Positions 64 to 30,131 of a DNA stretch of 30,131 nt are shown piece by piece (the stretch's first letter is position 1; the number at the start of each line of letters is the position of its first letter). The DNA comes from a virus. The notes beneath the pieces were generated by a model. That model saw nothing but the letters and a program-made list of their open reading frames with translations. It made no database searches and was not told where the DNA came from. The position numbers and the translations under genes were made by a program. Where the stretch lies: positions 1 to 30,131 of the IMG/VR virus record IMGVR_UViG_3300020469_000169. The stretch is one strand, 5' to 3'.

Positions 64-301
64 TTAAATAAGTATTTGCCTTAAATAAGTATTTGCGTTG
101 AATAAGTATTTGCCTTGAATAAGAATTTGCCTTAAATAAGTATTTGCGTTGAATAAGTATTTGCCTTGAATAAGAATTTGCCTTAAATAAGTATTTGCCT
201 TAAATAAGTATTTGCCTTAAATAAGTATTTGCCTTGAATAAGAATTTGCCTTAAATAAGTATTTGCCTTAAATAAGTATTTGCCTTAAATAAGTATTTGC
301 A
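64..301. repeat. 14 tandem copies of a 17-bp repeat (iteron-like array)
   Basis: Fourteen head-to-tail copies of the 17-bp unit TTAAATAAGTATTTGCC with no spacer. Variants occur only at fixed positions: A or G at position 3, T or A at position 10, and C, G or A at position 17. Copies 2-4 (81-131) and 5-7 (132-182) are the same three-variant series, so a 51-bp block was duplicated. Copies 8-10 and 12-14 are near-uniform. Each standard unit contains the dyad AAATA-AG-TATTT (5-bp arms, 2-bp gap), the size of a dimeric HTH binding site. The array ends 8 bp before the -35 box of the rightward promoter. It could be a replication iteron array, a regulator-binding or titration array, or simple slippage expansion. 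The repeat itself is certain; the function is inferred. Confidence 0.95.
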
Positions 302-309
302 TTTAGGTA

Positions 310-338
310 TTGACATATAATGTATTTGCATATATATT
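310..338 (+). promoter_or_regulatory. Rightward sigma70-like promoter with inverted repeat
   Basis: TTGACA (310-315) is followed after 17 bp by TATATT (333-338), a 5/6 match to the -10 consensus. A perfect 10-bp inverted repeat spans the promoter: TATAATGTAT at 316-325 and ATACATTATA at 344-353, so a bound dimer would cover the -10 and start site. AAGGAGG follows at 359-365, just before the first gene. The promoter lies directly after the 17-bp repeat array, which suggests regulation through it. Confidence 0.65.
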
Positions 339-371: not shown

Positions 372-692
372 GTGTGTAAAGAAAAAGTATATGAGCATGG
401 ATTTGATGACAAATACATGTCAAATCATAAAGGACAATGGGATGCATGGTTCATAAGTGATTTGCTCTGTTTGTTTAATGGTCATGTTGTATGCACTTCT
501 AAAGACTATGTAGAAGTTGCTACAGAAGATTATAAAAAAAGGATTTGCATTTACGCAGATAAAGGTAAATTTATAACTTATATAAACTTAGATGATCTTA
601 ATGCATATAGTTATACACAAAAAGATTATCTAGCCTTTCAAGGGTTTTGTAATAAATATAATTTTAAATATGAGGAGTGGTGCGATGAGTAA
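372..692 (+). CDS. Small phage protein of unknown function (106 aa)
   Basis: I do not recognise this protein. It is 106 aa, rich in Tyr, Asp and Lys, with five Cys and no membrane segment or signal peptide. The start is GTG at 372, six bases after a strong GGAGG Shine-Dalgarno. An ATG at 370 is in another frame and gives only a 28-aa peptide. It is the first gene of the only rightward transcript, behind the promoter at 310-338 and the repeat array. That position fits an early accessory or regulatory protein. Its coding strand also carries the ATTTGC motif (around 542). The reading frame is well supported by its ribosome site and its coupling to the next gene; the function is open. Confidence 0.75.
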   Translation: MCKEKVYEHGFDDKYMSNHKGQWDAWFISDLLCLFNGHVVCTSKDYVEVATEDYKKRICIYADKGKFITYINLDDLNAYSYTQKDYLAFQGFCNKYNFKYEEWCDE

Positions 693-885
693 ATATTATT
701 GGGAAAACGATACATGGGTTGATATAAAGCATGAGAATGGTGAGGTGTTTGATGCTAACTTATGGACGTGTGATAAATCAGGTAGGCAATACATTTCTTT
801 TTATGAAACTTTTAATGATGAAGATAGGTTTCGTAGAACTGATGGTATATCGCCTGTAGCAACTTTTAGAGTAATTGAGGAGTAA
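685..885 (+). CDS. Small phage protein of unknown function (66 aa)
   Basis: Unrecognised 66-aa acidic protein rich in aromatic residues (YYWENDTW near the N-terminus, FYETF in the middle), with no membrane segment. I chose ATG 685 because GAGGAG lies about nine bases upstream. The in-frame ATG at 670 precedes that site and would put the ribosome site inside the gene. The start overlaps the end of the preceding gene by eight bases (ATGAGTAA), so the two are probably translationally coupled. Its transcript ends at the hairpin at 908-936, where it meets the leftward operon. Confidence 0.72.
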   Translation: MSKYYWENDTWVDIKHENGEVFDANLWTCDKSGRQYISFYETFNDEDRFRRTDGISPVATFRVIEE

Positions 886-907
886 TAAAAAATTAATTTG
901 CAGTAAA

Positions 908-936
908 GGTAAATTTGCCCTAGTGGTAAATTTGCC
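908..936. terminator. Bidirectional hairpin terminator made of two motif copies
   Basis: Two direct copies of GGTAAATTTGCC (908-919 and 925-936) are separated by CTAGT. The 12-mer is nearly its own reverse complement, so the two copies can pair over all 12 positions (two G-U pairs) with a 5-nt loop. TTTAT follows on the plus strand and TTTACTG on the minus strand. It sits between the end of the rightward genes (885) and the end of the leftward operon (938), where a shared terminator is expected. The stem carries the ATTTGCC motif that is scattered over this end of the genome. Confidence 0.6.
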
Positions 937-1594: not shown

Positions 1595-1753
1595 TTATAA
1601 ATTTGCCCAATATGATTTGCCTTCAAACTTTAGACCAAACTCTTTTGCTTTTTTTAATATAGTAAATTTGCTTTTACCTGTAGATAAAGCAACATCATTT
1701 ACTGATTTGCCTTTGTCAATATATGCTTTAAGTATTTGCCTTTCAAGTTTCAT
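1595..1753 (-). CDS. Small helix-turn-helix protein (52 aa)
   Basis: A 52-aa basic protein. Residues about 5-41 read as a helix-turn-helix: a helix (RQILKAYIDKG), then VNDVALSTG, then recognition-helix-like SKFTILKKAKEFGL. The C-terminus is GKSYWANL. ATG 1753 overlaps the TGA of the DUF3310 gene (ATGA) and its stop touches the next ATG, so it is tightly coupled on both sides; I see no separate Shine-Dalgarno. The coding strand contains GGCAAA three times, each giving Gly-Lys, i.e. the scattered plus-strand TTTGCC motif. It is a candidate DNA-binding partner of the repeats. That link is inference. Confidence 0.6.
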   Translation of the reverse strand: MKLERQILKAYIDKGKSVNDVALSTGKSKFTILKKAKEFGLKFEGKSYWANL

Positions 1754-1968
1754 AGATTTTTATAATAACTTATTAACTCATCAAGATAAAATTTGCCTTT
1801 CTCTAAATCTTGTATGTTTTGATCTTTGTATTTATGTCTATGTAAATACTTTATTACATTGCCTTCAAGATACGAAGGGAAATTTGCACCTAACTGTTGC
1901 CTTATGTAATCCAAACATTCAACTTTGCCTTTATTGTAATGTGGCGGTTTATTTACCATGTCTGCCAT
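1750..1968 (-). CDS. DUF3310 family protein
   Basis: 72 aa. The sequence VNKPPHYNKGKVECLDYI followed by SYLEGNVIKYLHRHKYK and DLEKGKFYLDELI matches the DUF3310 family of small phage proteins, sometimes annotated as nucleotide kinase or SaV-like. The family is common in tailed-phage early regions; its biochemical role is unclear. The Shine-Dalgarno AGGAGG lies in TAGGAGGTTAAAAAATG before ATG 1968, and the gene overlaps the end of the upstream gene by 20 bases. Its stop overlaps the start of the HTH gene. Several Gly-Lys and Ala-Asn pairs are encoded by copies of the scattered motif. Confidence 0.85.
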   Translation of the reverse strand: MADMVNKPPHYNKGKVECLDYIRQQLGANFPSYLEGNVIKYLHRHKYKDQNIQDLEKGKFYLDELISYYKNL

Positions 1969-2149
1969 TTTTTAACCTCCTAGTTAATTCACGTTTACAT
2001 TTGATTCTTAATTTTGCATTTGCCCTTTCACTTTTCACTATCTCCACTAACTCTTTGTAAGATGTGTTCTTTATATAATAGTGTTCTGTTGTGTATTTGC
2101 CTGTCTTTCTGTCGTAACTTTTTACGCTTGGTTTTAGTTTTGTTGGCAT
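1949..2149 (-). CDS. Small basic phage protein (66 aa)
   Basis: 66-aa strongly basic protein. The N-terminus (KLKPSVKSYDRKTGKYTTEH) looks like a small conserved early protein I have seen in phage genomes near DUF3310 genes; I know of no assigned function. The C-terminal half is Lys/Arg-rich (KCKRELTRRLKNGRHGK), consistent with nucleic-acid binding. ATG 2149 lies inside the C-terminal part of the preceding gene, with a 122-base out-of-frame overlap. No strong Shine-Dalgarno is visible, so translation probably depends on coupling. Confidence 0.65.
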   Translation of the reverse strand: MPTKLKPSVKSYDRKTGKYTTEHYYIKNTSYKELVEIVKSERANAKLRIKCKRELTRRLKNGRHGK

Positions 2150-2225
2150 CTTTAAATATTTTATCCCAATTTTCGTCTATTTTATTTTTGTTTTCAGGTC
2201 TACGCTTACTACCTTTGCCTGTCAT
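2028..2225 (-). CDS. Small conserved phage protein (GKGSKRRPE type)
   Basis: 65 aa from ATG 2225, chosen because AAAGG lies seven bases upstream and because MTGKGSKRRPE followed by NWDKIFK is the usual start of a widespread but uncharacterised small phage protein. Most relatives I remember end soon after the WDxIF motif. Here the frame continues for about 38 strongly basic residues over the start of the next gene. The tail may be a real extension or may have arisen by loss of a stop codon. It overlaps the gene upstream by 17 bases. Confidence 0.65.
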   Translation of the reverse strand: MTGKGSKRRPENKNKIDENWDKIFKDANKTKTKRKKLRQKDRQIHNRTLLYKEHILQRVSGDSEK

Positions 2226-2709
2226 AATTAACCTTTTCAAAATTTGCATAAGGCAGAGAGCTTGTAAGAGTTTCTTTAATTTGGATTATGTCATCAGGTA
2301 TCATTCTAAACAATTCTTGCATACTAAAAAAGACAACATCTTTCTCTTTTTTATGTGCATTTATCATATTTGCCTTTTCATAATCATAGTCACACACTAA
2401 AGCATATTTGCCTTTGTCATAATCATAACACCTAATTTGCGGCTCAAGCTCATAATAGCCATTTGCCTTAATGCAATCTTCTAAGGAATCATAAGCACGA
2501 TATATCATATCTAACATTTGCATTTGCCTTTTTCTTTGATCTTCTACTAAAGATTTCTTAAATAACATTTTTGCCTTTTCAAATTTTATTTCCATATCTA
2601 CACCAACAATTTTATAGATACGTTTCATACAACCATATTTGCATATAAAATTTGCTTCAAACCTTCTAAGCTCTCTTAATTCTTTATTTAATTCTTTACA
2701 CAGTTTCAT
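2209..2709 (-). CDS. Hypothetical phage protein (166 aa)
   Basis: I do not recognise this protein. The N-terminal third is helical and basic (KELNKELRELRRF, then a CKYGC pair of cysteines), the middle is Met/Lys-rich, and the C-terminal third is mixed. ATG 2709 has no obvious ribosome site; in-frame ATG codons at residues 28 and 39 are alternative starts. Many residues come from the scattered plus-strand TTTGC motif, read here as GCAAA (KANG, KANMINA, EANF, DKGKY), so part of the sequence may reflect repeat spread rather than protein function. The intergenic palindrome region lies directly upstream. Confidence 0.6.
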   Translation of the reverse strand: MKLCKELNKELRELRRFEANFICKYGCMKRIYKIVGVDMEIKFEKAKMLFKKSLVEDQRKRQMQMLDMIYRAYDSLEDCIKANGYYELEPQIRCYDYDKGKYALVCDYDYEKANMINAHKKEKDVVFFSMQELFRMIPDDIIQIKETLTSSLPYANFEKVNYDRQR

Positions 2710-2834: not shown

Positions 2835-4805
2835 TTATCCATCATAAGGGTTAAAATTAATTAGTCTATAACCAAAAGAAAGATCAACACCCTCAACATC
2901 TTTAACGTGTTCTACAACACCATTTGCTCTAAGTCTATCAAGAGACCTATTGATCTTATCTCTACTGATCTCTTTACCTGAAACATTAAAATTTGCATGA
3001 TGTAAAAATGATCTTGCAGTAAACCATTTATCTCTTGGTTCTTCTTCATCTAAAGCCAATGAATACATTAAACTAGCTATCTTCTTATCTGTAGCTTGTA
3101 AAATAGCTTCATTAACATTTTCTTCATCTTCTTGCTCCTCGTCATCATCAACCTCTATCAATAAGCCAGAAGTCATCTCAAGTCCAGCACCAATAAGATT
3201 TTCTTCGTGAAACTTAAATCTTTTCTTTGTCATACCCATACCATCTTTATTCTTAGTCTGCTCAAAATTGACATACATAATGCCTTCATCATCCTTTCTT
3301 TTAACTTTAAACTCTCCATCTATACTTGCATCAAGCACAGAAGAACCTCTAGCTCTGTTGAGATTACCTCTACCTGTGTGATGTACTAGCAAAACAGCAC
3401 ATTGGTAATCATGTATTAGCTGATCTGCCGCTTTTACAAACTTATTTACTTCTTGAGCTGAGTTCTCATCGCCAGAAAATGATCTTTGAAACGTATCAAA
3501 TATAATCAAACCAATATCTCCAGACTGGTCTTTTATAAGATTTATCTCATCTTCAAGCTTTTTATACTCATCTTCTTCATTTATTCTTGCACCTCTGTTA
3601 GATAAAAACAGTTGTGCGTCTTGTAATTTAGTATTTGCCTTCTTTTCTTCAGGAGTGAAAAACAGCTTATGACCATAGCTACTTTGATGGAAAGCTAAAA
3701 GTCTTTTACGCATACCTGAAAGACCTTCTCCTGCTAAATAAATAACATTTGACCTATTTGCCTTACACCCATAAAACTCTGTTCCAGAAGCAACAGCACA
3801 CGCCATAGCTATAGCTATAAAGGATTTACCTGATTTTGGTTCACCAAATACAGTAATAAGTTTTTCTTGTTCAAAGCAACCTTCTATCAACCATTTAGGA
3901 TTTTCTACGTTTAATATTGCTTCTTTGACTGTTTGAAATCTTAATGAACCTCTTGGTATTTTTTGCTCTTGCTTATTGATAAAAAGCTCAAGTTCTTCAG
4001 GTGTCTTAAAATAATTGCTTTCAAGTGCATCGTAAAGATCATCCTTGTCAGCAAAATCTTTTGGCGGCTCAACTACCTTAACTTTACATTTTTGCCTTCT
4101 AAGATGATCTGATAGATCATTTGCACATTTCTTGCCAGCTTCATCATTGTCAGGAAAAATAATAACCTCTCTACCCTCTATTGGACTCCAGTCGGCTTTT
4201 TGCCATGCATTTACGCCACCATGCCAAGTCACAGAGTCGCCTTGCCAAATCTTCTCAGCAGCAACTGTAGCCTTCTCTCCCTCATTTATTAGTATAGGCT
4301 TGTCTGGGTATTGGTTTTGAAAATAAATTGGCAGTAAGCCGTCTGGTCGCTTCATACGCCAATTACCATCATCAAGCTTGGTAAATGGTGCGTATTTTTG
4401 CTTTATCCAATGCTCTTGTGGAAAACGCATAACTACAAAGTCTAGAGAATATCGCAATGATATTATGGCTTCACTTTGTAGTTTGTGCATTTCTGCGTTA
4501 GAAATTGACTTAGCACCACTTTTAGTAGGAGGTTTTATACATAAAGGGGGTGGTGCTAAGTCATAACCGCATAGGTTGAGTATATCGCTTACTTCCCTAT
4601 TTTCCCTCTTAATTAAATCTACTATACCACCACCATCGTCATTTTCAAAATCAAACCAAGTGGCACTAGCTATATTAACTACTAGCGAACCTTTGTTGCC
4701 GTAACGCCATTCGTCACCTTTTTTGACCTTTGGCTCGCCTAGTAGTTCTAAGACAACTTGTGGTGCGATTTGCACCCAATCAATATTAGAAGGGTAAGTC
4801 GTCAT
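2835..4805 (-). CDS. Primase-helicase (Toprim + RepA/DnaB-like ATPase)
   Basis: 656-aa fused replication protein. Residues about 40-85 look like the N-terminal domain of P4/T7-type primases (TWFDFENDDGGGIVDLI). A Toprim domain lies near 168-250 with Glu175 (INEGEKA) and Asp219/Asp221 (FPDNDEAG), the metal-binding residues for primer synthesis. A RecA-fold helicase follows, with Walker A GEPKSGKS (321-328), Walker B IIFDTF (Asp437) and a LLVHHTGRG motif, like RepA/AAA_25 helicases. An acidic stretch (DDDEEQEDEEN) precedes a C-terminal winged-helix-like domain. It probably unwinds and primes the phage genome on its own. ATG 4805 overlaps the acidic tail codons of the SSB-like gene by 20 bases, so both proteins are made from one message. 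No phage DNA polymerase is visible, so host polymerase is presumably used. Confidence 0.85.
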   Translation of the reverse strand: MTTYPSNIDWVQIAPQVVLELLGEPKVKKGDEWRYGNKGSLVVNIASATWFDFENDDGGGIVDLIKRENREVSDILNLCGYDLAPPPLCIKPPTKSGAKSISNAEMHKLQSEAIISLRYSLDFVVMRFPQEHWIKQKYAPFTKLDDGNWRMKRPDGLLPIYFQNQYPDKPILINEGEKATVAAEKIWQGDSVTWHGGVNAWQKADWSPIEGREVIIFPDNDEAGKKCANDLSDHLRRQKCKVKVVEPPKDFADKDDLYDALESNYFKTPEELELFINKQEQKIPRGSLRFQTVKEAILNVENPKWLIEGCFEQEKLITVFGEPKSGKSFIAIAMACAVASGTEFYGCKANRSNVIYLAGEGLSGMRKRLLAFHQSSYGHKLFFTPEEKKANTKLQDAQLFLSNRGARINEEDEYKKLEDEINLIKDQSGDIGLIIFDTFQRSFSGDENSAQEVNKFVKAADQLIHDYQCAVLLVHHTGRGNLNRARGSSVLDASIDGEFKVKRKDDEGIMYVNFEQTKNKDGMGMTKKRFKFHEENLIGAGLEMTSGLLIEVDDDEEQEDEENVNEAILQATDKKIASLMYSLALDEEEPRDKWFTARSFLHHANFNVSGKEISRDKINRSLDRLRANGVVEHVKDVEGVDLSFGYRLINFNPYDG

Positions 4806-5361
4806 CTGTTAGCCCATCTACTGTACCTTGTTGTGTTTGTTCACCAACATCAACATTTTCCGCCCATTCAGGTATTACAAACTCAGTTTTTCTTGGCTTA
4901 AAACCAACAAAATCAAAGTTTATCTCAGCAGTTTTACCTAAACCAACCTGTATTGATTTTGCATCAACATATTTAAAGGTTGGCAAGTTTGGCTCTTTGC
5001 CATCTTTTTCATGCCAAAAAGCAGCTAACATTTTATTAAACGCAGAAGTTTCACAATAGCTAAATCTTTGCCATAGTAAAGGTCTATCTGTGCCATCCGT
5101 ATAAAGCCATGTAGACATAGCTCTTTTATAGGTTTCATCAGGTCTAACCCCAACTACGCCAAAGTTATCATCCCACACAAAATCAAAGCCAGATGTAGGG
5201 TTATAAGCACCCCAACCAGACTGAAATGTTTTAGGATCAAGTTGCAGGTACTCGAATTTAACATTCTCATCACCTACATAGAATTTAAGCTCTCCAGCTC
5301 TAAATGAAAGAAATGATGTAGTAGAGTCACTACTACCCATCCCACCTAGTATATCAACCAT
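4786..5361 (-). CDS. SSB-like single-stranded DNA-binding protein
   Basis: 191 aa ending in DDDLPF, the acidic-Pro-Phe tip by which bacterial SSB recruits replication and repair partners, after a Gln/Gly/Thr linker (QTQQGTVDG). The body is beta-rich and aromatic (FEYLQLDPKTF, WGAYNPTSGFDFVWDDNFGVV), as expected for an OB-like fold, though it does not look like E. coli SSB itself. Operon position directly before the primase-helicase supports the call. AGGAGAG lies seven bases before ATG 5361. The codons of the tip overlap the primase start, coupling the two genes. Confidence 0.65.
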   Translation of the reverse strand: MVDILGGMGSSDSTTSFLSFRAGELKFYVGDENVKFEYLQLDPKTFQSGWGAYNPTSGFDFVWDDNFGVVGVRPDETYKRAMSTWLYTDGTDRPLLWQRFSYCETSAFNKMLAAFWHEKDGKEPNLPTFKYVDAKSIQVGLGKTAEINFDFVGFKPRKTEFVIPEWAENVDVGEQTQQGTVDGLTDDDLPF

Positions 5362-5377
5362 AATACTCTCCTATTGG

Positions 5378-5584
5378 TTAATGTATAGATAATTTACCTA
5401 TACTATCTAAATACTCAACTTCAAGTCTAAGATAGTTCCTTTCCTTGAAGTCACTAAAAGTCTCGTCATTAGCTATACCTAACAATGACAAGACCACATT
5501 GACCTGTTCAAATTGAACACGACAAAAATCGTTAAAATCATCTTCATAAATTATATTCACTAGCATATCGTAATACTTTTTCAC
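5378..5584 (-). CDS. Small acidic protein of unknown function (68 aa)
   Basis: Unrecognised 68-aa acidic, hydrophobic protein (NIIYEDDFNDF, FEQVNVVLSLLG), probably helical, without a signal peptide. The frame opens at GTG 5584 inside the end of the resolvase gene (41-base overlap). An in-frame ATG six codons later is an alternative start. No clear Shine-Dalgarno precedes either. It lies between resolvase and SSB genes, so a replication or recombination accessory role is likely but not shown. Confidence 0.5.
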   Translation of the reverse strand: MKKYYDMLVNIIYEDDFNDFCRVQFEQVNVVLSLLGIANDETFSDFKERNYLRLEVEYLDSIGKLSIH

Positions 5585-5966
5585 GATCTTTGCATAGGCT
5601 CTCTAAAGTGCTTAGATATACAGCTTGATTATTGCCTTTATCTCTGCCAGTTAATAAATAAATGGGTACAAGTGTTTGTATAGGTCGCCTATCATATTTA
5701 AAAATTAAGATAGGTATGTATCTATCTTTTGCTGCTATACATACTTGTGTCCACCATTCCTGTTTATATACAGACTTTTCTGTTCCAGCATATCTTTTAC
5801 ACTCTATAGCAAAGTTATCCCAGTAAATGTCTGCCTGTCCTTTATATTGTGTTTGATCTAAATTTCTTTTAACTCTATCTGCTGACCCTGTAGACTCTAA
5901 ATAATGATTTATTGCAGACACTATTTGCCTTTCAAAGTTATGACCCTTTGCTCTGCTATTCACCAT
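5544..5966 (-). CDS. Holliday junction resolvase-like PD-(D/E)XK nuclease
   Basis: 140 aa with the order typical of phage Hjc-type resolvases: N-terminal GHNFERQIVSAI with Glu12, then GQADIYW with Asp46, and IECKRYA with Glu55-x-Lys57 as the catalytic core. The length is normal for the family. It would cut branched recombination or replication intermediates before packaging. ATG 5966 overlaps the end of a 31-aa membrane microgene by 11 bases. With the YqaJ-like exonuclease and SSB-like protein it forms a small recombination set. Confidence 0.8.
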   Translation of the reverse strand: MVNSRAKGHNFERQIVSAINHYLESTGSADRVKRNLDQTQYKGQADIYWDNFAIECKRYAGTEKSVYKQEWWTQVCIAAKDRYIPILIFKYDRRPIQTLVPIYLLTGRDKGNNQAVYLSTLESLCKDREKVLRYASEYNL

Positions 5967-6051
5967 CTTTATAATCCAAATAAAAAATATAAGCTACACT
6001 TATAATCATGCAAATAGTCGTTGTTAAAAATATACAATTACTTGTTATCAT
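5956..6051 (-). CDS. Membrane microprotein (31 aa)
   Basis: A 31-aa peptide consisting of one hydrophobic segment (residues about 6-24, CIFLTTTICMIISVAYIFYL) and a charged C-terminus (DYKDGE). AAAGGA lies about seven bases before ATG 6051, and the stop overlaps the start of the resolvase gene. It is too short for ordinary gene callers. Inner-membrane toxins, lysis modulators and exclusion proteins have this size, but nothing specific can be said. The frame could be fortuitous. Confidence 0.4.
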   Translation of the reverse strand: MITSNCIFLTTTICMIISVAYIFYLDYKDGE

Positions 6052-6139
6052 CCATCATCCTTTCTTCTTGTTTTTTTAAAGATTTTTCTATGTATCTATC
6101 TATTTTATGTGCAATATAATCTATGAGCCTAGCCCACAT
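6038..6139 (-). CDS. Basic microprotein (33 aa)
   Basis: A 33-aa helical, charged peptide (LIDYIAHKIDRYIEKSLKKQEER) starting at ATG 6139, which overlaps the end of the preceding 46-aa gene by 11 bases. It overlaps the following membrane microgene by 14 bases. No strong ribosome site is present, so coupling is assumed. Support is the chain of overlapping starts and stops in a stretch otherwise lacking genes. Confidence 0.4.
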   Translation of the reverse strand: MWARLIDYIAHKIDRYIEKSLKKQEERMMDDNK

Positions 6140-6269
6140 ATTCTACCAAAGTCTTTTTACGCTTATCATCAAACTCTATAACTCTTTTACCTGAGTCGTA
6201 GCCTATCGTAGTACGCCCTTCTTTACCCTCAATAAATATAACTTTTTCTTCAGACACTATCCTTACCAT
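6129..6269 (-). CDS. Small protein of unknown function (46 aa)
   Basis: A 46-aa protein with a likely beta-hairpin (RIVSEEKVIFIEGKEG, RTTIGYDSGKRVIEF) and a basic C-terminus. ATG 6269 lies within the end of the RHH-like gene (20-base overlap, different frame). I do not recognise a family. Position directly after a small DNA-binding-like gene could suggest an antidote or modulator pair, but no toxin signature is visible. Confidence 0.45.
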   Translation of the reverse strand: MVRIVSEEKVIFIEGKEGRTTIGYDSGKRVIEFDDKRKKTLVEYVG

Positions 6270-6408
6270 GTGAAATTATGCCTAGCTTAATTAACATCTC
6301 TGTTGCTCTACCAATATCAGTTCTATTAGTAGCAGCAAAAATATTAATCTCAGTATGCATATCTTCTGATACCCACAATGCTTTTTTTGTTGCTTTTTTA
6401 TCATCCAT
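6250..6408 (-). CDS. Small ribbon-helix-helix-like protein (52 aa)
   Basis: A 52-aa protein with the pattern of an Arc/CopG-type ribbon-helix-helix: a short strand (KKALWVSEDMH), helix one (TEINIFAATN), turn (RTDIG), helix two (RATEMLIKLGI). GGAGAG lies eight bases before ATG 6408, so this is the best supported of the microgenes here. Such proteins usually repress their own or neighbouring promoters. It lies in the early operon, about 1.2 kb after the promoter at 7661-7688, and is a candidate to bind the inverted repeats at the phage promoters (inference). Confidence 0.6.
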   Translation of the reverse strand: MDDKKATKKALWVSEDMHTEINIFAATNRTDIGRATEMLIKLGIISHGKDSV

Positions 6409-6500
6409 TTTATTTACTCTCCGTTTAAAATATTATTATGTAATTGGTTTATAATCAAGTAAGGGCAAAAAGGTAATACTCTCCAAAACCAATACTCTCA

Positions 6501-7454
6501 TTACTTATTTGCCCTCTTAACTGTTATCGTTTTTCTTCTAATACTATAAGCATCACTAGCAGGTATAACTCTCTCTGGTTTAGCTTTATAGTTAATCATT
6601 CCCCAAGAAACGACATAATCCTCATTGACTCCTTTACTGGCATTACCCATATCGCCCATGATTTGTGATTGGTGGTAATCCACTTGTCCTTCTAAATCCC
6701 TAATCTTTTGCTTCAAGTCTAAATATTGATCAATATGAAAGTTATCTTTGATTTCTACTACAGATTCTTGGTCTGCTTCTTGATTCATAACATAAGCATC
6801 TCTACTCACTTGTGGCGTAAAATAATCTTTCTCTTTTATCCTACGATCAAAGTCTATAACTTTTTCTGCTAATTGTTCTTCAAACTCATAATCCCTTCTA
6901 TACACAAAAACTCGCAAGTCTGTTGATTCAAACAAAATTATAAGTACACCAAAATCACATTGAGTTGTCGACATAGCAGCTTTTAACTGCATTACGCCCA
7001 ACCAATTAGGCGGTGTATCTGTTGCTCTTATGGAGGTGCATTTAACTTCTATTGGACATTTGCCATTAACGACAATCTTAGTGCCATTTGGGATATAGAT
7101 ACCCAAGTCAGAATTATTTTTGATAACCAGCTTATTAGCTTCCGCCATACCATCTAATGAACCTTCTAATGGCAAAAGTGGATGTTCAACTTTTTCTGTG
7201 ATCTCTGCATCAAGATTTACTAAACCAAGCCTTCGACAACCTTCTGTCATAACTACATTCTCTAATACAGAGCCAGTAAGTTGTCGATTGGTTTGTGGAG
7301 TTCTTATATTCTCACCCTCACTTGCTCTAATACAGTTATGTAAAGCTTCTTGTTTAGTTTGAAAGTGACCCTCATCAAATATGCAAGCCACTAAAGAATG
7401 AGACACCCTATCATCCCTAGTTATTTTAGATATGACTTTTTCGTATGCACTCAT
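6501..7454 (-). CDS. YqaJ-like phage exonuclease (PD-(D/E)XK)
   Basis: 317 aa. The core is that of YqaJ/lambda-Exo-type recombination nucleases: QLTGSVLENVV with Glu65, LEGSLDGM with Asp101, and CPIEVKCTS with Glu136-x-Lys138. WLGVMQLKAAM downstream fits the usual Gln-containing helix. It probably resects double-stranded ends for single-strand annealing or strand exchange. No RecT/Erf-type annealing protein is recognisable in the window; the SSB-like protein or host RecA may serve. ATG 7454 overlaps the upstream stop (ATGA). The stop sits in GCAAATAAGTAATGAG, which resembles a join of two parts of the genome repeat. Confidence 0.8.
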   Translation of the reverse strand: MSAYEKVISKITRDDRVSHSLVACIFDEGHFQTKQEALHNCIRASEGENIRTPQTNRQLTGSVLENVVMTEGCRRLGLVNLDAEITEKVEHPLLPLEGSLDGMAEANKLVIKNNSDLGIYIPNGTKIVVNGKCPIEVKCTSIRATDTPPNWLGVMQLKAAMSTTQCDFGVLIILFESTDLRVFVYRRDYEFEEQLAEKVIDFDRRIKEKDYFTPQVSRDAYVMNQEADQESVVEIKDNFHIDQYLDLKQKIRDLEGQVDYHQSQIMGDMGNASKGVNEDYVVSWGMINYKAKPERVIPASDAYSIRRKTITVKRANK

Positions 7455-7630
7455 GTAATGCTGTGTAGTTTTACAGATCGAATATAGCTACGCTTACCTT
7501 TTGCCAGTTCACGCAACATTCTAATCTTAGCTTCATCATAGTCGCTGTATCTAGCAACCATTGTAAAGTCTGATCTTAGAGCATTTTTCTTAGGCTCTTG
7601 CATAATCCAATAGTTGAATTTAGTTTGCAT
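7451..7630 (-). CDS. First gene of the early operon, unknown (59 aa)
   Basis: 59-aa basic protein (FNYWIMQEPKKNALRS, then DYDEAKIRMLRELAKGKRS) of unknown function. I chose ATG 7630 because a perfect AAGGAGG lies five bases upstream; an upstream in-frame extension would place that site inside the gene. It is the first gene after the promoter at 7661-7688 and is coupled to the exonuclease gene by an ATGA overlap. A role in early takeover or as a nuclease modulator would fit but is not shown. Confidence 0.65.
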   Translation of the reverse strand: MQTKFNYWIMQEPKKNALRSDFTMVARYSDYDEAKIRMLRELAKGKRSYIRSVKLHSIT

Positions 7631-7650
7631 GTTTACCTCCTTACATCTAA

Positions 7651-7699
7651 ACATATTTACATTATGCATAGATATATAAATATGTCAATACTTATTTAA
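7651..7699 (-). promoter_or_regulatory. Early-operon promoter with repeat core and operator-like inverted repeat
   Basis: On the minus strand TTGACA (7688-7683) and CATAAT (7666-7661, 5/6 to consensus) are 16 bp apart. A perfect 9-bp inverted repeat, ACATATTTA/TAAATATGT (arms 7677-7685 and 7651-7659, 17-bp gap), covers the promoter from the -35 edge past the -10. The 13-mer TTAAATAAGTATT, identical to the first 13 bases of the 17-bp array unit, lies at 7699-7687 and runs into the -35 box. The stop codon of the upstream nuclease gene is within it. This would drive the replication operon. Confidence 0.7.
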
Positions 7700-8138
7700 A
7701 CAAAGGATTTAGGACTGGTATCTGATTTAGTTGATTTAGACATTCTTGAAAGGAGTCAAGCTCCATAGTGTCAGTTATATTATTATTTTGAAAGGTGTAG
7801 TAATTTTGTGTAGAAGTATTTGCTTTGAAAAAGATACGCTTATGTTGTTTACCAAAAAACACAAAAGCTAAAATATCTACATGATAGTTTTTGTAGACAC
7901 TAGACATACTTCTTGATGGCTCTGCGGCAAAAACATATTTGCCTTCCTTAGTTTCTCTTCTGCTTTTGACCTGAACTGTGTATTTTGCGTTTGATAGCTC
8001 ACACATAATATCTGCTTTGTGCTTGTCTTGTGTAGGATAAACAAAGTCGCAATACTGAATAAGAAATGCTTGCACTAACAATTCTCCTAACGCACCTAAT
8101 CTTGAATTATTTTGATGATCTTCGCTTGACTTTTTCAT
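7692..8138 (-). CDS. PD-(D/E)XK endonuclease-like protein (148 aa)
   Basis: 148 aa with a nuclease-like N-terminal half: GALGELLVQAFLI with Glu19, KADIM with Asp43, then YTVQVKS with Gln56-x-Lys58, i.e. a D-QxK variant of the PD-(D/E)XK core as in several restriction-like and DUF4365-like enzymes. The C-terminal half (VDILAFVFFGKQHKRIFF) matches the beta-strand pattern often following that core. It lies between lysozyme and the early promoter. Roles could be host DNA breakdown, junction cleavage or exclusion. GAGG precedes ATG 8138 closely. The stop codon lies inside the repeat core that overlaps the early promoter. Confidence 0.6.
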   Translation of the reverse strand: MKKSSEDHQNNSRLGALGELLVQAFLIQYCDFVYPTQDKHKADIMCELSNAKYTVQVKSRRETKEGKYVFAAEPSRSMSSVYKNYHVDILAFVFFGKQHKRIFFKANTSTQNYYTFQNNNITDTMELDSFQECLNQLNQIPVLNPLFK

Positions 8139-8160
8139 GCCTCAAGCTCATAGGTGGCAA

Positions 8161-8604
8161 TTAGACTTGATGCCACTCCTTGCCTTCAAACAGCAAAGCT
8201 TCGGCTTCTCTTCTTCTAACTAAGCCCTCTAAAACCTTACCATTTGCCTTATTCCATCTACGCATTTGATGTGGCACATCTTCCCAGTCTTGAGCATTTA
8301 CTCTTTTTAAAAGCGTTGACGAGTTTAGATTTGCACCGCCTAGATTGAATGTCCAAGATACGATTGAATCATATTGATTTTGTTCTAATAGCACATTGAC
8401 AGCTTTGGTGACTGCCTTCTCATAAACAGCTACATCTTTTAACAGCAGTTGTTCTGCTTCTTCTTGGGTTATCGTATCGCCTTCTTTTACGCCTTTGGTA
8501 GAACCATAGCCAATAGTCCAAACACCAGCAGCACATTTGTAAGCTTCAAGTTTACAACCCTCAAACAATTTTATAAGGGATAAACCTTCTGTAGAAATAA
8601 TGAT
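8161..8604 (-). CDS. GH24 phage lysozyme (endolysin), probable AUC start
   Basis: T4/P22-type muramidase of about 147 aa. The catalytic pattern Glu-x8-Cys-x5-Thr is visible (FEGCKLEAYKCAAGVWT), with Cys where T4 has Asp, as in some phage endolysins; WTIGYGST and WTFNLGG follow as usual. It cleaves peptidoglycan once the holin releases it. The start is unusual. GGAGAGTAAT directly precedes ATC at 8604, and GGAGAGTATT precedes the ATG of the SSB-like gene at the same distance. From there the protein begins IIISTEGLSLIKLFEG, like typical family N-termini. The alternatives are ATT codons just after it, or ATG 8661 with a 19-residue extension inside the holin gene and no good ribosome site. No SAR-type hydrophobic leader is present. 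Confidence 0.85.
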   Translation of the reverse strand: MIISTEGLSLIKLFEGCKLEAYKCAAGVWTIGYGSTKGVKEGDTITQEEAEQLLLKDVAVYEKAVTKAVNVLLEQNQYDSIVSWTFNLGGANLNSSTLLKRVNAQDWEDVPHQMRRWNKANGKVLEGLVRRREAEALLFEGKEWHQV

Positions 8605-8617
8605 ATTACTCTCCTTT
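8602..8617 (-). promoter_or_regulatory. Ribosome site deciding the non-AUG lysozyme start
   Basis: AAAGGAGAG (8617-8609) overlaps the last codons of the holin gene. ATC follows its GGAGAG at a spacing identical to the ATG of the SSB-like gene, where GGAGAGTATT precedes the start. No ATG, GTG or TTG lies at this position. A rare AUC or AUU start would lower endolysin output. Confidence 0.55.
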
Positions 8618-9085
8618 GTCGCTAGTATGCGAGGCACCAAAGTAAAAAGATATGATTGCACTAGCTAGTCCACCAAGATAGCCAAGCACTAAGTTTATCA
8701 AAGCTTCGCTATTTTGTTCTGGTGGTTGCAGCGTTACTAAAAATATATAACCTAGGAAACCGCCAATAGTGCATAAGCCAATAATTCTTGCAGTCCAATC
8801 CTTGCTGAACATACCTCTAGCGTGCTGTTTGTCTTGAGTTTCAAGTTTAAAGATATCAACATCTAACTCTTTCATTTGCGTCTCAAACTCTTGCTCTGCT
8901 TTTTTAAGCTCTAGCATTTGTTCTGGCGTTGCACTTTGCAAAGCTTGTTGGATAGATTTTTGATCGTTAGATACGCCAAGCACTTGTGCTATCTTACCCA
9001 TAGCCATACCGCCTAAAGGCGTGCCAAGTGCTGATCCGATTGTCGGTGCTACAGCTCCAACTATGTTTTTAAGTATTGCTTTCAT
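8606..9085 (-). CDS. Holin of the three-TM (GTA-type) family
   Basis: 159 aa. An N-terminal Gly/Ala-rich amphipathic or membrane segment (residues about 8-35, VGAVAPTIGSALGTPLGG) is followed by a charged helical linker (about 40-90). Two membrane segments follow (about 97-118 and 129-150), ending YFGASHTSDKGE, which is the layout of the 3TMs holin family seen next to endolysins and in gene transfer agents. It would form the inner-membrane lesion that starts lysis. Its last codons carry the ribosome site of the lysozyme gene, and its start overlaps the stop of the 71-aa membrane protein by four bases. Confidence 0.8.
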   Translation of the reverse strand: MKAILKNIVGAVAPTIGSALGTPLGGMAMGKIAQVLGVSNDQKSIQQALQSATPEQMLELKKAEQEFETQMKELDVDIFKLETQDKQHARGMFSKDWTARIIGLCTIGGFLGYIFLVTLQPPEQNSEALINLVLGYLGGLASAIISFYFGASHTSDKGE

Positions 9086-9297
9086 AACACCACCGCAGTT
9101 AAAACCGCTATTGATAAAGCACCAACAAAGCCAAAGACACCAAAGGTTGCCATTTTCATAGTGTTATTGATAGATGCTATCTCTTGTTTAATTTCTTTGA
9201 ATTCATTGAAAGCTGTTTTCCATCTTTCAGCATTTTCTTTTTTAGATACAGCTAAATCTTTGGCTACATCTTGAACTGTTAATCTTTTAGCTTTCAT
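9082..9297 (-). CDS. Small single-TM protein (possible holin partner)
   Basis: 71 aa. The N-terminal two thirds are charged and helical (VQDVAKDLAVSKKENAERW, FNEFKEIKQEIASINNTMK), followed by one C-terminal membrane helix (about 48-70, ATFGVFGFVGALSIAVLTAVVL). This is the layout of haemolysin XhlA-like phage proteins and some antiholins. It lies directly upstream of the holin, overlapping it by four bases, and its ATG overlaps the stop of the cyclase gene by 11 bases. A role in tuning holin action is plausible; the sequence alone does not prove it. Confidence 0.65.
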   Translation of the reverse strand: MKAKRLTVQDVAKDLAVSKKENAERWKTAFNEFKEIKQEIASINNTMKMATFGVFGFVGALSIAVLTAVVL

Positions 9298-11032
9298 AAG
9301 TATATATAGATAATTTTTGCTTTTTACCTTTTACTTTAATTGGTTCTAATGATTTTAACCTAAATTTTGACCTTTTTTTAGTATTTTGTCCAATAATTAT
9401 ATCAACACCAACTTCTTTAGTAGCACTTTCAAGCCTAGCTGCTGTATTAACAGCGTCACCAATAGCAGTATAATCAAAGCGTGTATCACTTCCCATATTA
9501 CCTATTATCGATTCTCCTGAGTTTATGCCTATACCTATCTCTATGCCTAGATCGGCTTGCACCATATCTTCCTGTATTTTCAATGCTGCTGCTATGGCTT
9601 TATTCTCATGTTCAGGCAAATCTATAGGTGAGTTAAATATAGCCATCATTGCATCACCAATATATTTATCAACCATGCCGCCAAACTCTTTGACTGCATT
9701 TGCTTGAATAGTAAGAGCTTTGTTCATAATCTTTGTGACTTCTTCAGGTTCAAGTCTTTCAGATAGAGAGGTAAAACCACGCACATCGGTAAATAAAAAA
9801 GTACAATACTTTCTCTCACCACCTAGTTTCAAAAGCTCAGGATTCTCTTGTAATTGTTTGACTTGTCTTGGATCAAGGTAATGTTCGAACTGTTTTTTAA
9901 TTTGCTGTCTTAGTTTGTATTGTTCTCTAAAGCGTAAGTAGAAAGCTATTGTGCTAGTTATAAATTGTGATATTAAAGTCCAAGAAACATCAACTAGTAA
10001 GCCTTTTTGGATCATCGCATATCCACCAGAAGCCACACAAAGCATTAGAAAAGTTCCTATACCTAAACCCCAAGTCACCCCAAAAGAAGTCAATACAAGC
10101 CATGAGAGAGCCACAAAAAACGCAAATATGGCTATTTCGAAGCCAAAACTCCAGTCTGGGACACTTGGAGAGTCAGGTATTAAAATTGATTCAGCTAAAG
10201 CAGTTTGTATCTTATGTGGTTCTAGTAAACCAACTGGAGTAGCTAACTGTGGCATGATACCACTAGCTGTAAAACCAACAAAGACATATTTGCCCTTAAC
10301 GTCCATTTCTTCAAGTGTTGTTTGTTTTGTGTCAACCCAACTTATCCATTTACGCCCAAGACTATCTGTTTTTACTGGTGCAATACCTTGAACTGTAATC
10401 TCTTCAATACCAAGATCATTGGTCTTAATAATATAAGTATTGCTACTTGCTAAGACTTTCATTACCTCAGTTCCATACGCAGAAACAAATCCATCAGGAG
10501 TTTGTAGCATTAGAGGTATTCTTCTTACAAGATTGTCTAGCTCAGTAGGTGCGATTGCTATACCTTGATTGGAGCAGTCTTTTAGTATATCTATATTTTG
10601 AACTACACCTGTTGATTGTATGCCTGCAATATTATTGTTGCCGAGTATGACAGTTCCAGAGGTTGTTGGATAATTTGCACTTGCATCCTCAAACATAGCA
10701 AGCACAGAACCACCATAACAAAGAGCTTCTGCAAATGCTTCATCACCACCTAACCTATCAGGTTGTGGGAAAGCTAACACCCAACCAACACCTAAAGCTC
10801 CCTTTTGTAAAAGCTCTATGTGTATTTCGGCAAGCCTTTGTCTTGGTAAAGGGTAGCCACCTTCTCTTGCTACATCCTCCTCTGTAATATTTAGGATTGT
10901 AAAGAACCCAGACTGATCATATTCTTTTACTAAAGCATCAAAAGTTCTAAGCTTTATTACTTCTACAAAATTTGCCTTAAATACTAGCGGTGCAAGTAGT
11001 ATTGGCAAAATTATAAATATAAGTTTTTTCAC
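9287..11032 (-). CDS. CHASE2-domain membrane adenylate cyclase (class III)
   Basis: 581 aa. An N-terminal hydrophobic anchor (about 1-18) leads into a periplasmic CHASE2 sensor domain (about 25-290; VFVGFTASG near 250 is typical). Three membrane helices follow (about 296-363), then a class III cyclase domain (about 405-580). All key residues are visible: metal-binding Asp416 (FTDVRGF) and Asp460 (KYIGDAM), adenine-selecting Lys456 and Asp520 (FDYTAIGDAVNTAARLE), and transition-state Asn529 and Arg533. It should therefore be an active adenylate, not guanylate, cyclase that makes cAMP in the host cytoplasm. GTG 11032 directly follows the FecR-protein stop. CHASE2 cyclases paired with FecR-domain proteins are known in bacteria; one in a phage late operon is surprising. 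It is also an intact, full-length gene. Confidence 0.92.
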   Translation of the reverse strand: MKKLIFIILPILLAPLVFKANFVEVIKLRTFDALVKEYDQSGFFTILNITEEDVAREGGYPLPRQRLAEIHIELLQKGALGVGWVLAFPQPDRLGGDEAFAEALCYGGSVLAMFEDASANYPTTSGTVILGNNNIAGIQSTGVVQNIDILKDCSNQGIAIAPTELDNLVRRIPLMLQTPDGFVSAYGTEVMKVLASSNTYIIKTNDLGIEEITVQGIAPVKTDSLGRKWISWVDTKQTTLEEMDVKGKYVFVGFTASGIMPQLATPVGLLEPHKIQTALAESILIPDSPSVPDWSFGFEIAIFAFFVALSWLVLTSFGVTWGLGIGTFLMLCVASGGYAMIQKGLLVDVSWTLISQFITSTIAFYLRFREQYKLRQQIKKQFEHYLDPRQVKQLQENPELLKLGGERKYCTFLFTDVRGFTSLSERLEPEEVTKIMNKALTIQANAVKEFGGMVDKYIGDAMMAIFNSPIDLPEHENKAIAAALKIQEDMVQADLGIEIGIGINSGESIIGNMGSDTRFDYTAIGDAVNTAARLESATKEVGVDIIIGQNTKKRSKFRLKSLEPIKVKGKKQKLSIYTYES

Positions 11033-12184
11033 TTAGTTCTCTTGTTTTATTCTTATAATACTATCACTACCACCATTAATCTTAATAGTTCTTGAAACAC
11101 CATCCTGAATAATAATTACTGTATAGCTATCATCTGAATTTATATCTACTCTTGCTGTATTGTTTACGCTTCGTAATATTGTTAGCTTCTCCCCTGTAAG
11201 GAAAGTTGTGATTTGAGTATCTAAGTCTTGACCAAAGGTTGTGCCTGATAAAGCAACAGAAGTAACGTCTGCTTGCAGTTGGTCTTGTTCTTCTTGTATC
11301 TCTAATTCATCTAAAATATCAAGTAAATCTTCTAAAAAATTTACGTCAAGATAATTTATATCTAGCTCAGTAAACTCTAACTCACTTTCAGCATCTAAGA
11401 AATCTTCATCAAGGTAGTCAACATCAAGATCATTGAAATCAAGAATACTATCTGATCTAACTATCACCTCTTCTTGCTCTACCACCTTCTCCTCTGGCGG
11501 TGAGACAATAAGCATATTGTCAATAAGATCAAGAGATAAATCTAAAATTACTGGTTTACTTGGCAAGTTCTCAAATACAGAAACAGTTGTAGCTTCAAAA
11601 GGTTTATTAAGTATGACACTTCCCATTGCTGTAATAACTTCTATTTCACCGCTTGAAAGACCATATTGATCTGGTAAAAGAATAATTAAGCTTTCTCCAA
11701 GCTCATTAACTGTAGCTGTAAAATCTGTGCCACGAATAGCTATATTTGCTGTTGGAGTTTTTAGAGATATGTTTTGTTTATTGAGTCTATCTATATTGCC
11801 AGAAATAAATCTGGTTGTGCCAAGAGCAAAGGTAAGAGCCATCTTTGACTTTGCAGGGTTTGGATCATAAATATATTCATTAATTAATAACTCACTATGT
11901 TCTGTTAGCTTTACAACAGACTCATCAAGAAAAGTAATAGCCATTCTGCCATTAGACGTTATGGCTTCATCGTTGCTTTGAATAGCAAAATCTACAAAAG
12001 CATCTAAGGGTTGATCCCTTACTATCTTTGCATTACCTCTTAGCTCAGAGACATCTCCAATATTAGCATACTGTGCTTGTGCCTTGATCGTCTTGGACGA
12101 TACAGATACTACTATTAGAAGTGTTAGTAATAAGTTTGAAATAATCCCTTGCAAGTGTAGACGATTGAGTAATATCAATATCAT
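11033..12184 (-). CDS. FecR-domain exported protein with acidic C-terminal repeats
   Basis: 383 aa from ATG 12184, chosen because GGGAG lies five bases upstream. A hydrophobic signal or anchor (about 12-30) is followed by a periplasmic FecR domain (about 42-160): DVSELRGNA, then TSNGRMAITFLDESVVKL, and SLKTPTANIAIRGTDFTATV. Next comes a very acidic region (about 240-315) with two near-copies of LDVDYLDEDFL / LDINYLDVNFL, then a beta-like C-terminus. FecR domains pass signals across the envelope; here the partner is probably the CHASE2 domain encoded next, with stop and start adjacent. The first 122 bases overlap the end of the curlin-like gene out of frame, so the ribosome site and signal peptide are written inside the last curlin repeat. 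Confidence 0.85.
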   Translation of the reverse strand: MILILLNRLHLQGIISNLLLTLLIVVSVSSKTIKAQAQYANIGDVSELRGNAKIVRDQPLDAFVDFAIQSNDEAITSNGRMAITFLDESVVKLTEHSELLINEYIYDPNPAKSKMALTFALGTTRFISGNIDRLNKQNISLKTPTANIAIRGTDFTATVNELGESLIILLPDQYGLSSGEIEVITAMGSVILNKPFEATTVSVFENLPSKPVILDLSLDLIDNMLIVSPPEEKVVEQEEVIVRSDSILDFNDLDVDYLDEDFLDAESELEFTELDINYLDVNFLEDLLDILDELEIQEEQDQLQADVTSVALSGTTFGQDLDTQITTFLTGEKLTILRSVNNTARVDINSDDSYTVIIIQDGVSRTIKINGGSDSIIRIKQEN

Positions 12185-12788
12185 TTGAACTCCCATCTAA
12201 ATCTAAATAAAAATAGCCAGAGTCAGCAGATGAAGTACCACCATACCCACTACCTGAAAAATCTATTTGGTTAGAATTACCATAAATATCAACATAAGAT
12301 GTTGCATTTGCATAATCAATCGCAAAAGTAAGTTTATTGCTATCGCCTAAAATAATCCAGTCAAGATCAAGATATGATGCGTCATCATCTTCAGCTATTG
12401 CTAAATCAAACTCATTACTTGAACCTGTAACATCAATATTCAAATCTACATAATCAGCACTAATTAAACCTGTGCTATTCATTAAAATATCAAATATGTT
12501 GCTATCTCCATTCCATTCAAAATATCCAGTAAAGTTATCACCATCAATAGCATCTGATCTAAATATGTTTGAAGTACCTATCTGATTTATGTCAAGTGTC
12601 ATTGACACCCCATCTAAATCTAAAGCAGTCATATTACCAGAGCTAGCATCTGTGCCGCCTATTAAGTTAGATGATCCAAGTTGTTCAAGATCAATACTCG
12701 CTGAATTACCAGACTGATCTACATATATCTCATTATCTGCTGCAACAGACAATGATAAAAATAAAATTATGTTAAATAATTTATTCAT
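12063..12788 (-). CDS. Curlin-like (CsgA/CsgB-type) repeat protein
   Basis: 241 aa from ATG 12788. Signal peptide about 1-16 (IILFLSLSVA, then ADNE). The mature part is a row of about eight repeats with the core Gly-x-Ser-Asn at residues 38, 71, 94, 122, 149, 170 and 199 (plus GNSA at 27), spaced 21-33. Between the cores are Asp/Leu/Ile-rich strands. The first three repeats keep the curlin Gln-x-Gly signature (DQSGNS, EQLGSSN, NQIGTSN); later ones lose the Gln. Two Cys lie at the extreme C-terminus. This is consistent with a secreted amyloid-forming beta-solenoid passing through CsgG. It follows the CsgG gene with an eight-base overlap. The homology to curlin is inferred from the repeat pattern and context, and the repeats are more irregular and more acidic than in E. 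coli CsgA. Confidence 0.75.
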   Translation of the reverse strand: MNKLFNIILFLSLSVAADNEIYVDQSGNSASIDLEQLGSSNLIGGTDASSGNMTALDLDGVSMTLDINQIGTSNIFRSDAIDGDNFTGYFEWNGDSNIFDILMNSTGLISADYVDLNIDVTGSSNEFDLAIAEDDDASYLDLDWIILGDSNKLTFAIDYANATSYVDIYGNSNQIDFSGSGYGGTSSADSGYFYLDLDGSSNDIDITQSSTLARDYFKLITNTSNSSICIVQDDQGTSTVC

Positions 12789-13593
12789 ATTTCCAATATC
12801 CCCTCTCATAACCTATTGTTATGAGTTGTAATATCGCACCCTCTATAGCTTTCATCAAAGCTAGTGTGGTGCTTTCATTTGAAGCAGAGCCTATCTCTAC
12901 CTCTACAAGTTCAGTCGCCATTTCATAAAATCTAAATAAATCTTGCGACTGACCATAACTGTAAATTGTTTTTTGTGACATAACTTCAATCAGTATCTCA
13001 CCTGTTGCTACTGAAACCATACGCAAACTTACAGTCACGGAATCTTCTCTATATTGCATACTAGAGCCAATACCTAAATATCTAGCTCCAATACCTCCAG
13101 TAGCCAAATTAGTATCATAACTTACTACAGCACCCTCTAGCAATACACCAGCAAAAAGTAAAGGCGACAAAATATTAATATCGTCTAACTGTTCTCTCGT
13201 TGATCTAATAAGCTGTCTTTCTTTACTTAGATTATCTAAACCTATTCTTTCTACTACACGAAAAAAATTGCCGTTAGATGCGTGTTTTAAAGAACGCAAG
13301 AGTATAGTATGTGGTGCTTGAGTGATAGCAGAAGAAAACATAGCAAACTCACTATTGCTTTTTCTTTGCCCTGTTTGATCTAGGAATGATGAAGGATAAA
13401 CAGCTACTACTGGTTTGATTATTGGTGCTTGAACATTCAACAGTTCTTGTGACTGAAGATCAAATATTGAGTATTTATCAAGTCCTTTGCTTTCAAATCT
13501 TTCAGGTCGTGTTTCTTTGACTACATCAAAGACTGCACAACTAGAAAGAGAAATCGCCAAGAGGAAGTTCAATAACTGTTGTTGTGCCATCAT
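12781..13593 (-). CDS. csgG: CsgG-type curli secretion pore lipoprotein
   Basis: 270 aa, near the length of E. coli CsgG. A lipoprotein signal ends in the lipobox LSSC with Cys19. The CsgG core is clear: VAVYPSSF (63-70) where the pore constriction lies, LLEGAVVSYD, GGIGARYLGIG (166-176), SVTVSLRMVSVATGEIL, KTIYSYGQ and a C-terminal GYERGYW. From memory these match E. coli CsgG closely at GVGARYFGIG and NLRVVNVSTGEIL. CsgG assembles as a nonameric outer-membrane channel that exports curlin subunits. Its start lies inside the end of the CsgF gene (53-base overlap) and its end overlaps the curlin-like gene. There is no CsgE, CsgB or CsgD in the window, so the system is reduced or relies on host parts. 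Confidence 0.93.
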   Translation of the reverse strand: MMAQQQLLNFLLAISLSSCAVFDVVKETRPERFESKGLDKYSIFDLQSQELLNVQAPIIKPVVAVYPSSFLDQTGQRKSNSEFAMFSSAITQAPHTILLRSLKHASNGNFFRVVERIGLDNLSKERQLIRSTREQLDDINILSPLLFAGVLLEGAVVSYDTNLATGGIGARYLGIGSSMQYREDSVTVSLRMVSVATGEILIEVMSQKTIYSYGQSQDLFRFYEMATELVEVEIGSASNESTTLALMKAIEGAILQLITIGYERGYWKYE

Positions 13594-29734: not shown

Positions 29735-30131
29735 GAATATATCACAATCAAATAAAAATATAAAATATTCGAGGTGAAGTAAGTGATGCGACTTTTTAGC
29801 CCTTCACCCTCTGGAACGCCCTGTTTGTGAAGAAAGTGAAGAAGGTGAAGAGAAATAATAGGATGTTTTTTATTATAAATATGGTGAATAGTATAGCCCT
29901 GTGTCTAAACAAAACCTTTGGTGCTGCAACCTGCATACGCAGACAGCTAGAAGAACCTATGACCGCCAGCCCCCAATAATCAAGGGATGCAGACCAACAA
30001 CAAAAAAAACACGAAAAAGAGCAAAAAATACAGCAAAATGTATTATTCATAGAATTTATAAAGGTTTACAAAAATAATTAAAAAAAATATTAATGATATG
30101 TTGTTATTTATTTATATATATGTATAATATA
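29735..30131. other. Right-end non-coding region, cos candidate
   Basis: About 400 bp upstream of TerS without a convincing gene. It contains three alternating copies of GGTGAAG/CTTCACC (near 29772, 29803 and 29845) that could pair with one another, a run of GTGAAG repeats at 29827-29851, and a relatively GC-rich island (about 29895-29995) in otherwise very AT-rich DNA. In lambda-like phages the cos site lies just upstream of the small terminase gene, so this is the expected place for it. The last 70 bases are almost pure A/T. Confidence 0.45.
29901..30077 (+). CDS. Possible small basic protein (58 aa), weak
   Basis: A 58-codon frame on the plus strand opens at GTG 29901 and ends at TAA 30075. 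The product is strikingly basic (KGCRPTTKKTRKRAKN in the middle) with four Cys (WCCNLH, KGCRP, KCIIH) that could bind zinc. No ribosome site is visible, and it is opposite in direction to the adjacent terminase gene. The GC-rich island lies within it, so either the island is a constrained coding sequence or the frame is a by-product of a conserved DNA site. Confidence 0.25.
   Translation: MSKQNLWCCNLHTQTARRTYDRQPPIIKGCRPTTKKTRKRAKNTAKCIIHRIYKGLQK

Follow-up and report, generated by a model that had tools for sequence, protein, structure and literature searches.

Oriented ATTTGC sites and repeat arrays in the early region of a marine phage family, with a small HTH protein as their likely reader

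Iteron origins of replication, such as those of RK2, P1, P4 alpha and SPP1, contain direct repeats near T/A-rich DNA. The stoperators of cluster A mycobacteriophages such as L5 and TipsytheTRex are many short, asymmetric and consistently oriented sites accompanied by a phage-coded HTH protein, and a block to elongation has been proposed for them (PMC9283540). Phage L5, which is temperate, has more than 20 of these 13-mers, located in promoters and short intergenic spaces, and a 183-aa, two-domain repressor (PMC9283540). Two further proteins are relevant for comparison: Cbp1 of Sulfolobales, an HTH protein that coats arrays of direct repeats and thereby keeps cryptic promoters suppressed (PMC10883916), and Gp5.7 of T7, a 7 kDa phage DNA-binding protein with an HTH-like fold that represses the phage promoters dependent on host RNAP (PMC5569994).

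We analyzed a viral DNA stretch of 30,131 nucleotides (IMG/VR record IMGVR_UViG_3300020469_000169; the window) with a repeat array close to its left end. A sequence-only reading had described fourteen in-phase 17-bp repeats, variable at three positions and partly block-duplicated, and this description was borne out in full. The array (array 1) spans exactly positions 64–301 (14 × 17 bp = 238 bp), is free of indels and has a TRF score of 404. Its units vary at positions 3 (A in 9, G in 5), 10 (T in 11, A in 3) and 17 (C in 11, G in 2, A in 1), and the unit types follow each other in the order 1,2,3,4,2,3,4,1,1,1,4,1,1,5, copies 5–7 thus being the same as copies 2–4. ATTTGC is found in all 14 units and the full ATTTGCC, GGCAAAT on the other strand, in 11. 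The AAATA-AG-TATTT dyad pointed out in the same reading is intact in 9 of the 14 units but absent from the common units of the relatives (ATTTGCCTTGATTATAA, ATTTGCCTTAATACTAA and similar). We rejected this palindrome as the recognized element because it is not conserved among the relatives, the conserved part being AAGGCAAAT(TTA) only. In the window record, array 1 is preceded by just 63 bp and operon 1 is missing; a close relative (L130) extends about 1.4 kb further.

Relatives were gathered in two ways, by scanning IMG/VR for the pattern of spaced ATTTGCC copies and by an independent protein scan for the primase-helicase, and many contigs were common to both. The matches listed include at least 97 nonredundant loci, most of them from a single phage family with the conserved order TerL, TerS, rightward operon 1, array 1, rightward operon 2, array 2, TAIL, array 3, HTH, DUF3310, c3, c1, primase-helicase and SSB. 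Most loci are fragments from uncultured phages, and their ORFs come from a simple script calling the longest ORFs, by which some HTH genes were overlooked. Up to three arrays per locus are found at fixed places and are accompanied by scattered copies, not every locus having all three: array 2 lies at the stop codon of TAIL and array 3 between the HTH stop and the TAIL start. Among the listed loci, array 1 has up to 19 units, array 2 mostly 3 and array 3 between 3 and 18. In most loci, about 8–12 bp separate the end of array 1 from a promoter-like element of operon 2, and T-rich DNA precedes the array. That the array is kept among relatives at lengths varying from 3 to 19 units supports, at the level of sequence comparison, the earlier proposal of a protein-binding-site type of array, and the many independent contigs carrying arrays make an assembly artefact unlikely. 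The pattern scan also returned arrays of a 15-bp ATTTGCCCCGCTGAG unit; these look like pentapeptide-repeat genes (reading LSGAN) and were set aside as unrelated. On one contig of 65,678 b (IMGVR_UViG_3300050343_000089, loci L155 and L156), the early region is present twice, in slightly differing versions about 34 kb from each other; the assembly has probably fused the genomes of two strains.

The TerL of the window matches those of CRP-406 and CRP-821 at 50–52% over 98%, and the order TerS–TAIL–primase is shared. By its homologous TerL and shared gene order, the window phage belongs to the published CRP-822-type family, almost all members of which lack an integrase; for the low-G+C subgroup V of the family, SAR86 is the predicted host (PMC12629253). 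The G+C content of the window, about 35%, agrees with the 35.4% of subgroup V (PMC12629253) and by itself suggests membership in that subgroup. The word "repeat" is absent from the main text of the family paper (PMC12629253), and in searching the literature we came across no account of the arrays. The cultured phages CRP-406, CRP-811 and CRP-821 showed no comparable motif excess and no HTH by profile, and a scan of bacterial genomes with the primase profile returned no relatives and thus no host or prophage evidence. A GCTAGAA...AGAAGAACCTA-like sequence is conserved beside TerS (window 29930–29980; L162 7620–7690; L171 28200–28320) and is possibly a cos or pac site. The features of the window discussed below are as follows.

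64–301, plus strand: array 1, 14 units of 17 bp in which ATTTGC occupies unit positions 11–16
310–338, plus strand: promoter-like element of rightward operon 2 (TTGACA, 17 bp, TATATT), 8 bp right of array 1
372–885, plus strand: rightward operon 2, two small ORFs
896–936, plus strand: array 2, three sites 17 bp apart, directly past the TAIL stop codon
938–1594, minus strand: TAIL, minor tail protein (phrog_1924)
1595–1753, minus strand: 52-aa HTH protein, proposed reader of the motif
1601–1621, plus strand: two sites (1601, 1615) where relatives have array 3 (HTH stop / TAIL start)
1666–2655, plus strand: scattered ATTTGC within leftward genes, in excess over codon shuffles (1666, 1705, 1734, 1791, 1882, 2018, 2095, 2242, 2368, 2406, 2435, 2461, 2516, 2522, 2637, 2650)
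2835–4805, minus strand: primase-helicase, AAA_25/RepA-like, an unlikely reader
2922–11000, plus strand: sparser ATTTGC or ATTTGCC sites (2922, 2991, 3633, 3756, 5923, 6507, 7058, 7937, 8242, 10288, 10970 and others), fading to background

The promoter-like element is flanked by an inverted repeat (ATAATGTAT at 317–325 and ATACATTAT at 344–352), and one motif copy (324) lies within its spacer. Array 2, at the convergent operon ends, also forms a strong hairpin, with a 17-pair stem in a terminator scan and z scores of −6.8 on the plus strand and −3.1 on the minus strand. Between c1 and the primase gene (2720–2830), the window contains a repeated TGTGTAGT / ACACACTACAC block with inverted repeats; a similar region appears common to about 30 relatives, and gene cluster c10 is apparently a spurious ORF lying across this region. 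Farther right (9287–12809), inspection by eye revealed proteins resembling an adenylate-cyclase/CHASE2-type sensor, a FecR-like protein and a curli-repeat-like protein, an odd cargo for a small phage.

Outside array 1, ATTTGCC occurs in the window 28 times on the plus strand and once on the minus strand (binomial p = 1e-7), densely at 900–2650 and thinning rightward. Most single sites are inside coding DNA, in all frames, and are not confined to promoters or short intergenic spaces. In comparison with synonymous-codon shuffles, the leftward genes of the window contain 20 copies of GGCAAAT where 6.0 are expected and 14 of AGGCAAAT where 2.7 are expected. Across the relatives, the scattered sites, which read AAAGGCAAAT in the leftward sense, fall in 948 distinct contexts with the codon frames used 338, 326 and 284 times. 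As all three frames are used, the protein sequence is not their cause, and the frame spread and the synonymous shuffles together rule out amino-acid or codon bias. The leftward genes of the relatives have the motif 537 times in one orientation and 7 times in the other, and the excess over synonymous shuffles is evident gene by gene (observed/shuffled: PRIM 89/10.9, TAIL 48/8.4, c1 43/7.1, c3 30/4.3, DUF3310 29/5.9 and nuclease c16 28/4.3). No excess was seen in the terminase genes and in most of the structural genes sampled (TerS 0/0.7, TerL 0/0.7, portal 4/4.5, tail J-like 8/5.3). Rightward operon 2 has 57 copies of ATTTGC vs. 15.8 expected and 11 of ATTTGCC vs. 1.3, with no excess in the reverse orientation (19 vs. 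17.3), and operon 1, which lies to the left of array 1, is devoid of ATTTGCC (0 vs. 1.6). The same DNA orientation in the leftward genes and in rightward operon 2, with none in operon 1, indicates a DNA-polar code that begins at array 1 and disregards the direction of the genes. On these counts, the motif excess is the outcome of nucleotide-level, DNA-polar selection. A search of the motif-free relatives for another oriented motif found none above noise.

The orientation statistics bear on an action of the motif at the RNA level, where the array RNA would be antisense to the GGCAAAU of leftward mRNAs or the motif would be an RNA–protein site. While leftward mRNAs contain most of the sites as sense GGCAAAU and array 2 folds strongly, the operon 2 excess is in sense-strand ATTTGC, which has the same DNA orientation but the opposite RNA sequence, and no Rfam match was found; we consider such an action very improbable. 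Recognition by a host factor, in the manner of Chi, KOPS or uptake sequences, is similarly hard to believe: the motif is short, oriented and overrepresented, as such recognition would predict, but the excess is missing in close relatives of the same family, the motif forms arrays and covaries with the phage HTH, and operon 1 and the terminase genes are site-free.

In the loci read in detail, the zone of sites runs from operon 2 through the early leftward genes and stops near the lysin and late genes, early and late being labels inferred from gene functions. The spacing of the sites is variable (14, 15, 17 and 21–23 bp). Both observations matter for the idea that the HTH protein reads the motif in some other polar DNA system, such as silencing chromatin, a replication-fork barrier or a segregation or condensation zone. 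The polarity independent of gene direction and the one-sided zone from array 1 are in line with it, but the zone limits follow the early/late gene border and not a fixed distance, and the variable spacing argues against a rigid filament, which makes this idea improbable in our view.

The likely reader of the motif, judged from sequence and predicted structure, is the phage's own HTH protein of 52–57 aa. The 52-aa protein of the window matches Pfam HTH_50 below the gathering score, and its AlphaFold model (pLDDT 82) has three helices in a tri-helical DNA-binding fold. The nearest folds are Fis (Z 6.4), GcrA, Tc3 and SpoIIID, all of a common HTH arrangement, and Foldseek gave no match to the model below E 0.001. 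Matches to NCBIfam (Shiga toxin B subunit models and CRISPR Csa3) were far under the cut-offs and were dismissed as chance. A weak profile match (E = 0.005 to PDB 2lvs, a CRISPR repeat-binding protein) makes Cbp1 a possible relative; unlike the phage protein, Cbp1 has three HTH domains and binds CRISPR repeats in archaea. T7 Gp5.7 is likewise small and has an HTH-like fold but acts on promoter initiation, and the abstract of the source describes no oriented site code for it (PMC5569994). The profile search for HTH ORFs covered the later loci only, and the simple ORF caller missed many; the HTHs found in motif-rich relatives (52–57 aa, one recognition helix) all have SKS-x-IL and nearly all G[KR]SKSTIL...WANL. 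In motif-free relatives, the helices read CSPSTVRK, VHPSTVRRK, VHPSTIRRK, VSQSTVIRR, CSQTTIRRK or VSKSTILK with a WWRS end, or no HTH was found. One locus, L016, has seven motif copies despite a somewhat different helix, GYSKSH.

The primase tree places the motif-free phages in one seven-row clade nested among motif-bearing phages. Within this clade, beside motif-free L149 (100/97), lies L159, which has sites. Its TAIL, HTH and c3 are 79–86% identical to those of motif-bearing L148, its c1, PRIM and SSB are 80–89% identical to those of motif-free phages, and its sites are chiefly in and around the TAIL–HTH–c3 block, with one in the primase gene. By these identities, L159 is a natural recombinant of motif-bearing and motif-free lineages. 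The mosaic makes the primase-helicase, SSB and c1 poor candidates for the reader and weakens the primase-helicase as a binder, a role for which the sequence-only reading had listed it together with the 52-aa HTH. The latter gains as the best candidate, since the presence of the motif follows the HTH type and the motif and the HTH of L159 come from the same lineage, while its primase, SSB and c1 are of motif-free origin. TAIL and c3 travel with the HTH in L159, and formally the HTH is not uniquely singled out. The motif is also coinherited with a block of rightward genes: all 13 motif-bearing loci with both flanks have a gap of 1.9–4.5 kb between TerS and TAIL with several rightward ORFs, whereas in 16 motif-free loci the gap is 99–1,284 bp (judged by length, except in L162, L150 and L254), counts that reflect association among related, nonindependent loci. 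No rightward ORFs were counted in the gaps of motif-free L162 and L150, and the longest motif-free gap (L254) is a leftward methyltransferase.

The relatives of L159 are also informative about an iteron origin, a role that had been suggested for the array. The HTH or another initiator would bind array 1, melt the T-rich DNA at its left and load the RepA-like primase-helicase, with arrays 2 and 3 and the single sites serving as accessory or control iterons. The 17-bp direct repeats are flanked by a T-rich tract and an AT-rich promoter, resembling known iteron origins, and the helicase is RepA/AAA_25-like. In four loci (L093, L094, L099 and L122), the stretch 83–41 bp left of array 1 contains three exact TTATCCACA DnaA boxes in the same orientation, with positions −83, −71 and −49 relative to the array. 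However, phages whose primase and SSB are 80–89% identical to those of L159 lack the array, the motif and the whole rightward block, which weakens a general role in replication initiation; the DnaA boxes of the one subset still point to a possible origin. Most motif-bearing loci have no DnaA boxes at array 1 (the left flank in the window being only 63 bp), and an origin leaves unexplained why single sites are strewn through some 10 kb of coding sequence and stop at the late genes. The scattered coding sites, the arrayless phages with closely related helicase-primase and a tiny HTH in the place of an initiator also set the system apart from iteron origins, and we regard an origin as unlikely, though as the strongest rival to the reading that follows.

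We favor, with a probability of roughly 0.45, a stoperator-like polar roadblock or insulator against leftward transcription, as the sites cover the early leftward genes and the operon ahead of them, spare the late leftward genes and co-occur with the convergent operon. The strong hairpin of array 2 at the convergent junction also speaks for such a barrier. Array 1 would be the main cluster of predicted HTH sites in a polar system consisting of three arrays and dozens of single AAGGCAAAT sites. We infer that the HTH protein, made from the early operon, binds these sites and hypothesize that it would block leftward RNA polymerase in a direction-sensitive manner. The block would attenuate or shut off leftward early transcription together with the read-through coming from the late genes, and would shield the opposing rightward operon 2, the late genes remaining site-free. 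Directly upstream of the operon 2 promoter, array 1 would be the last barrier and may regulate that promoter too. Two points count against the roadblock: array 3 lies directly before TAIL, which presumably is needed late, and a bypass would be required; and arrays beside promoters and T-rich DNA suit an origin too.

The system resembles stoperators in its phage HTH, here the candidate reader, in its many short, asymmetric sites of consistent orientation on the DNA and in the proposed block to elongation. Relative to transcription, the orientation is uniform in the leftward genes but opposite in rightward operon 2. It differs from those of L5 in its 9–10 bp motif, its tandem arrays, its many sites in coding sequence and its single-domain protein of 52–57 aa. 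Furthermore, the family is almost integrase-free (PMC12629253), and the sites are found in the early region only and keep one orientation even in opposing genes.

More broadly, it is possible, if somewhat doubtful, that this lytic family has a polar positional code in its early region, with dozens of identical sites under synonymous selection, whose one-domain reader of about 52 aa would close the early DNA to RNA polymerase or forks coming from one direction, the late DNA being left unmarked, and that the code arrived with an inserted convergent operon. Oriented, dispersed phage sites are known mainly from temperate actinobacterial phages, and a similar logic may here be at work in a marine family that is widespread and apparently lytic, whose candidate reader is very small and whose sites have been imposed on coding sequence in all frames. 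Being compact, the locus would lend itself to tests of how transcription or replication is controlled according to direction, with the motif-free relatives and the recombinant as natural controls.
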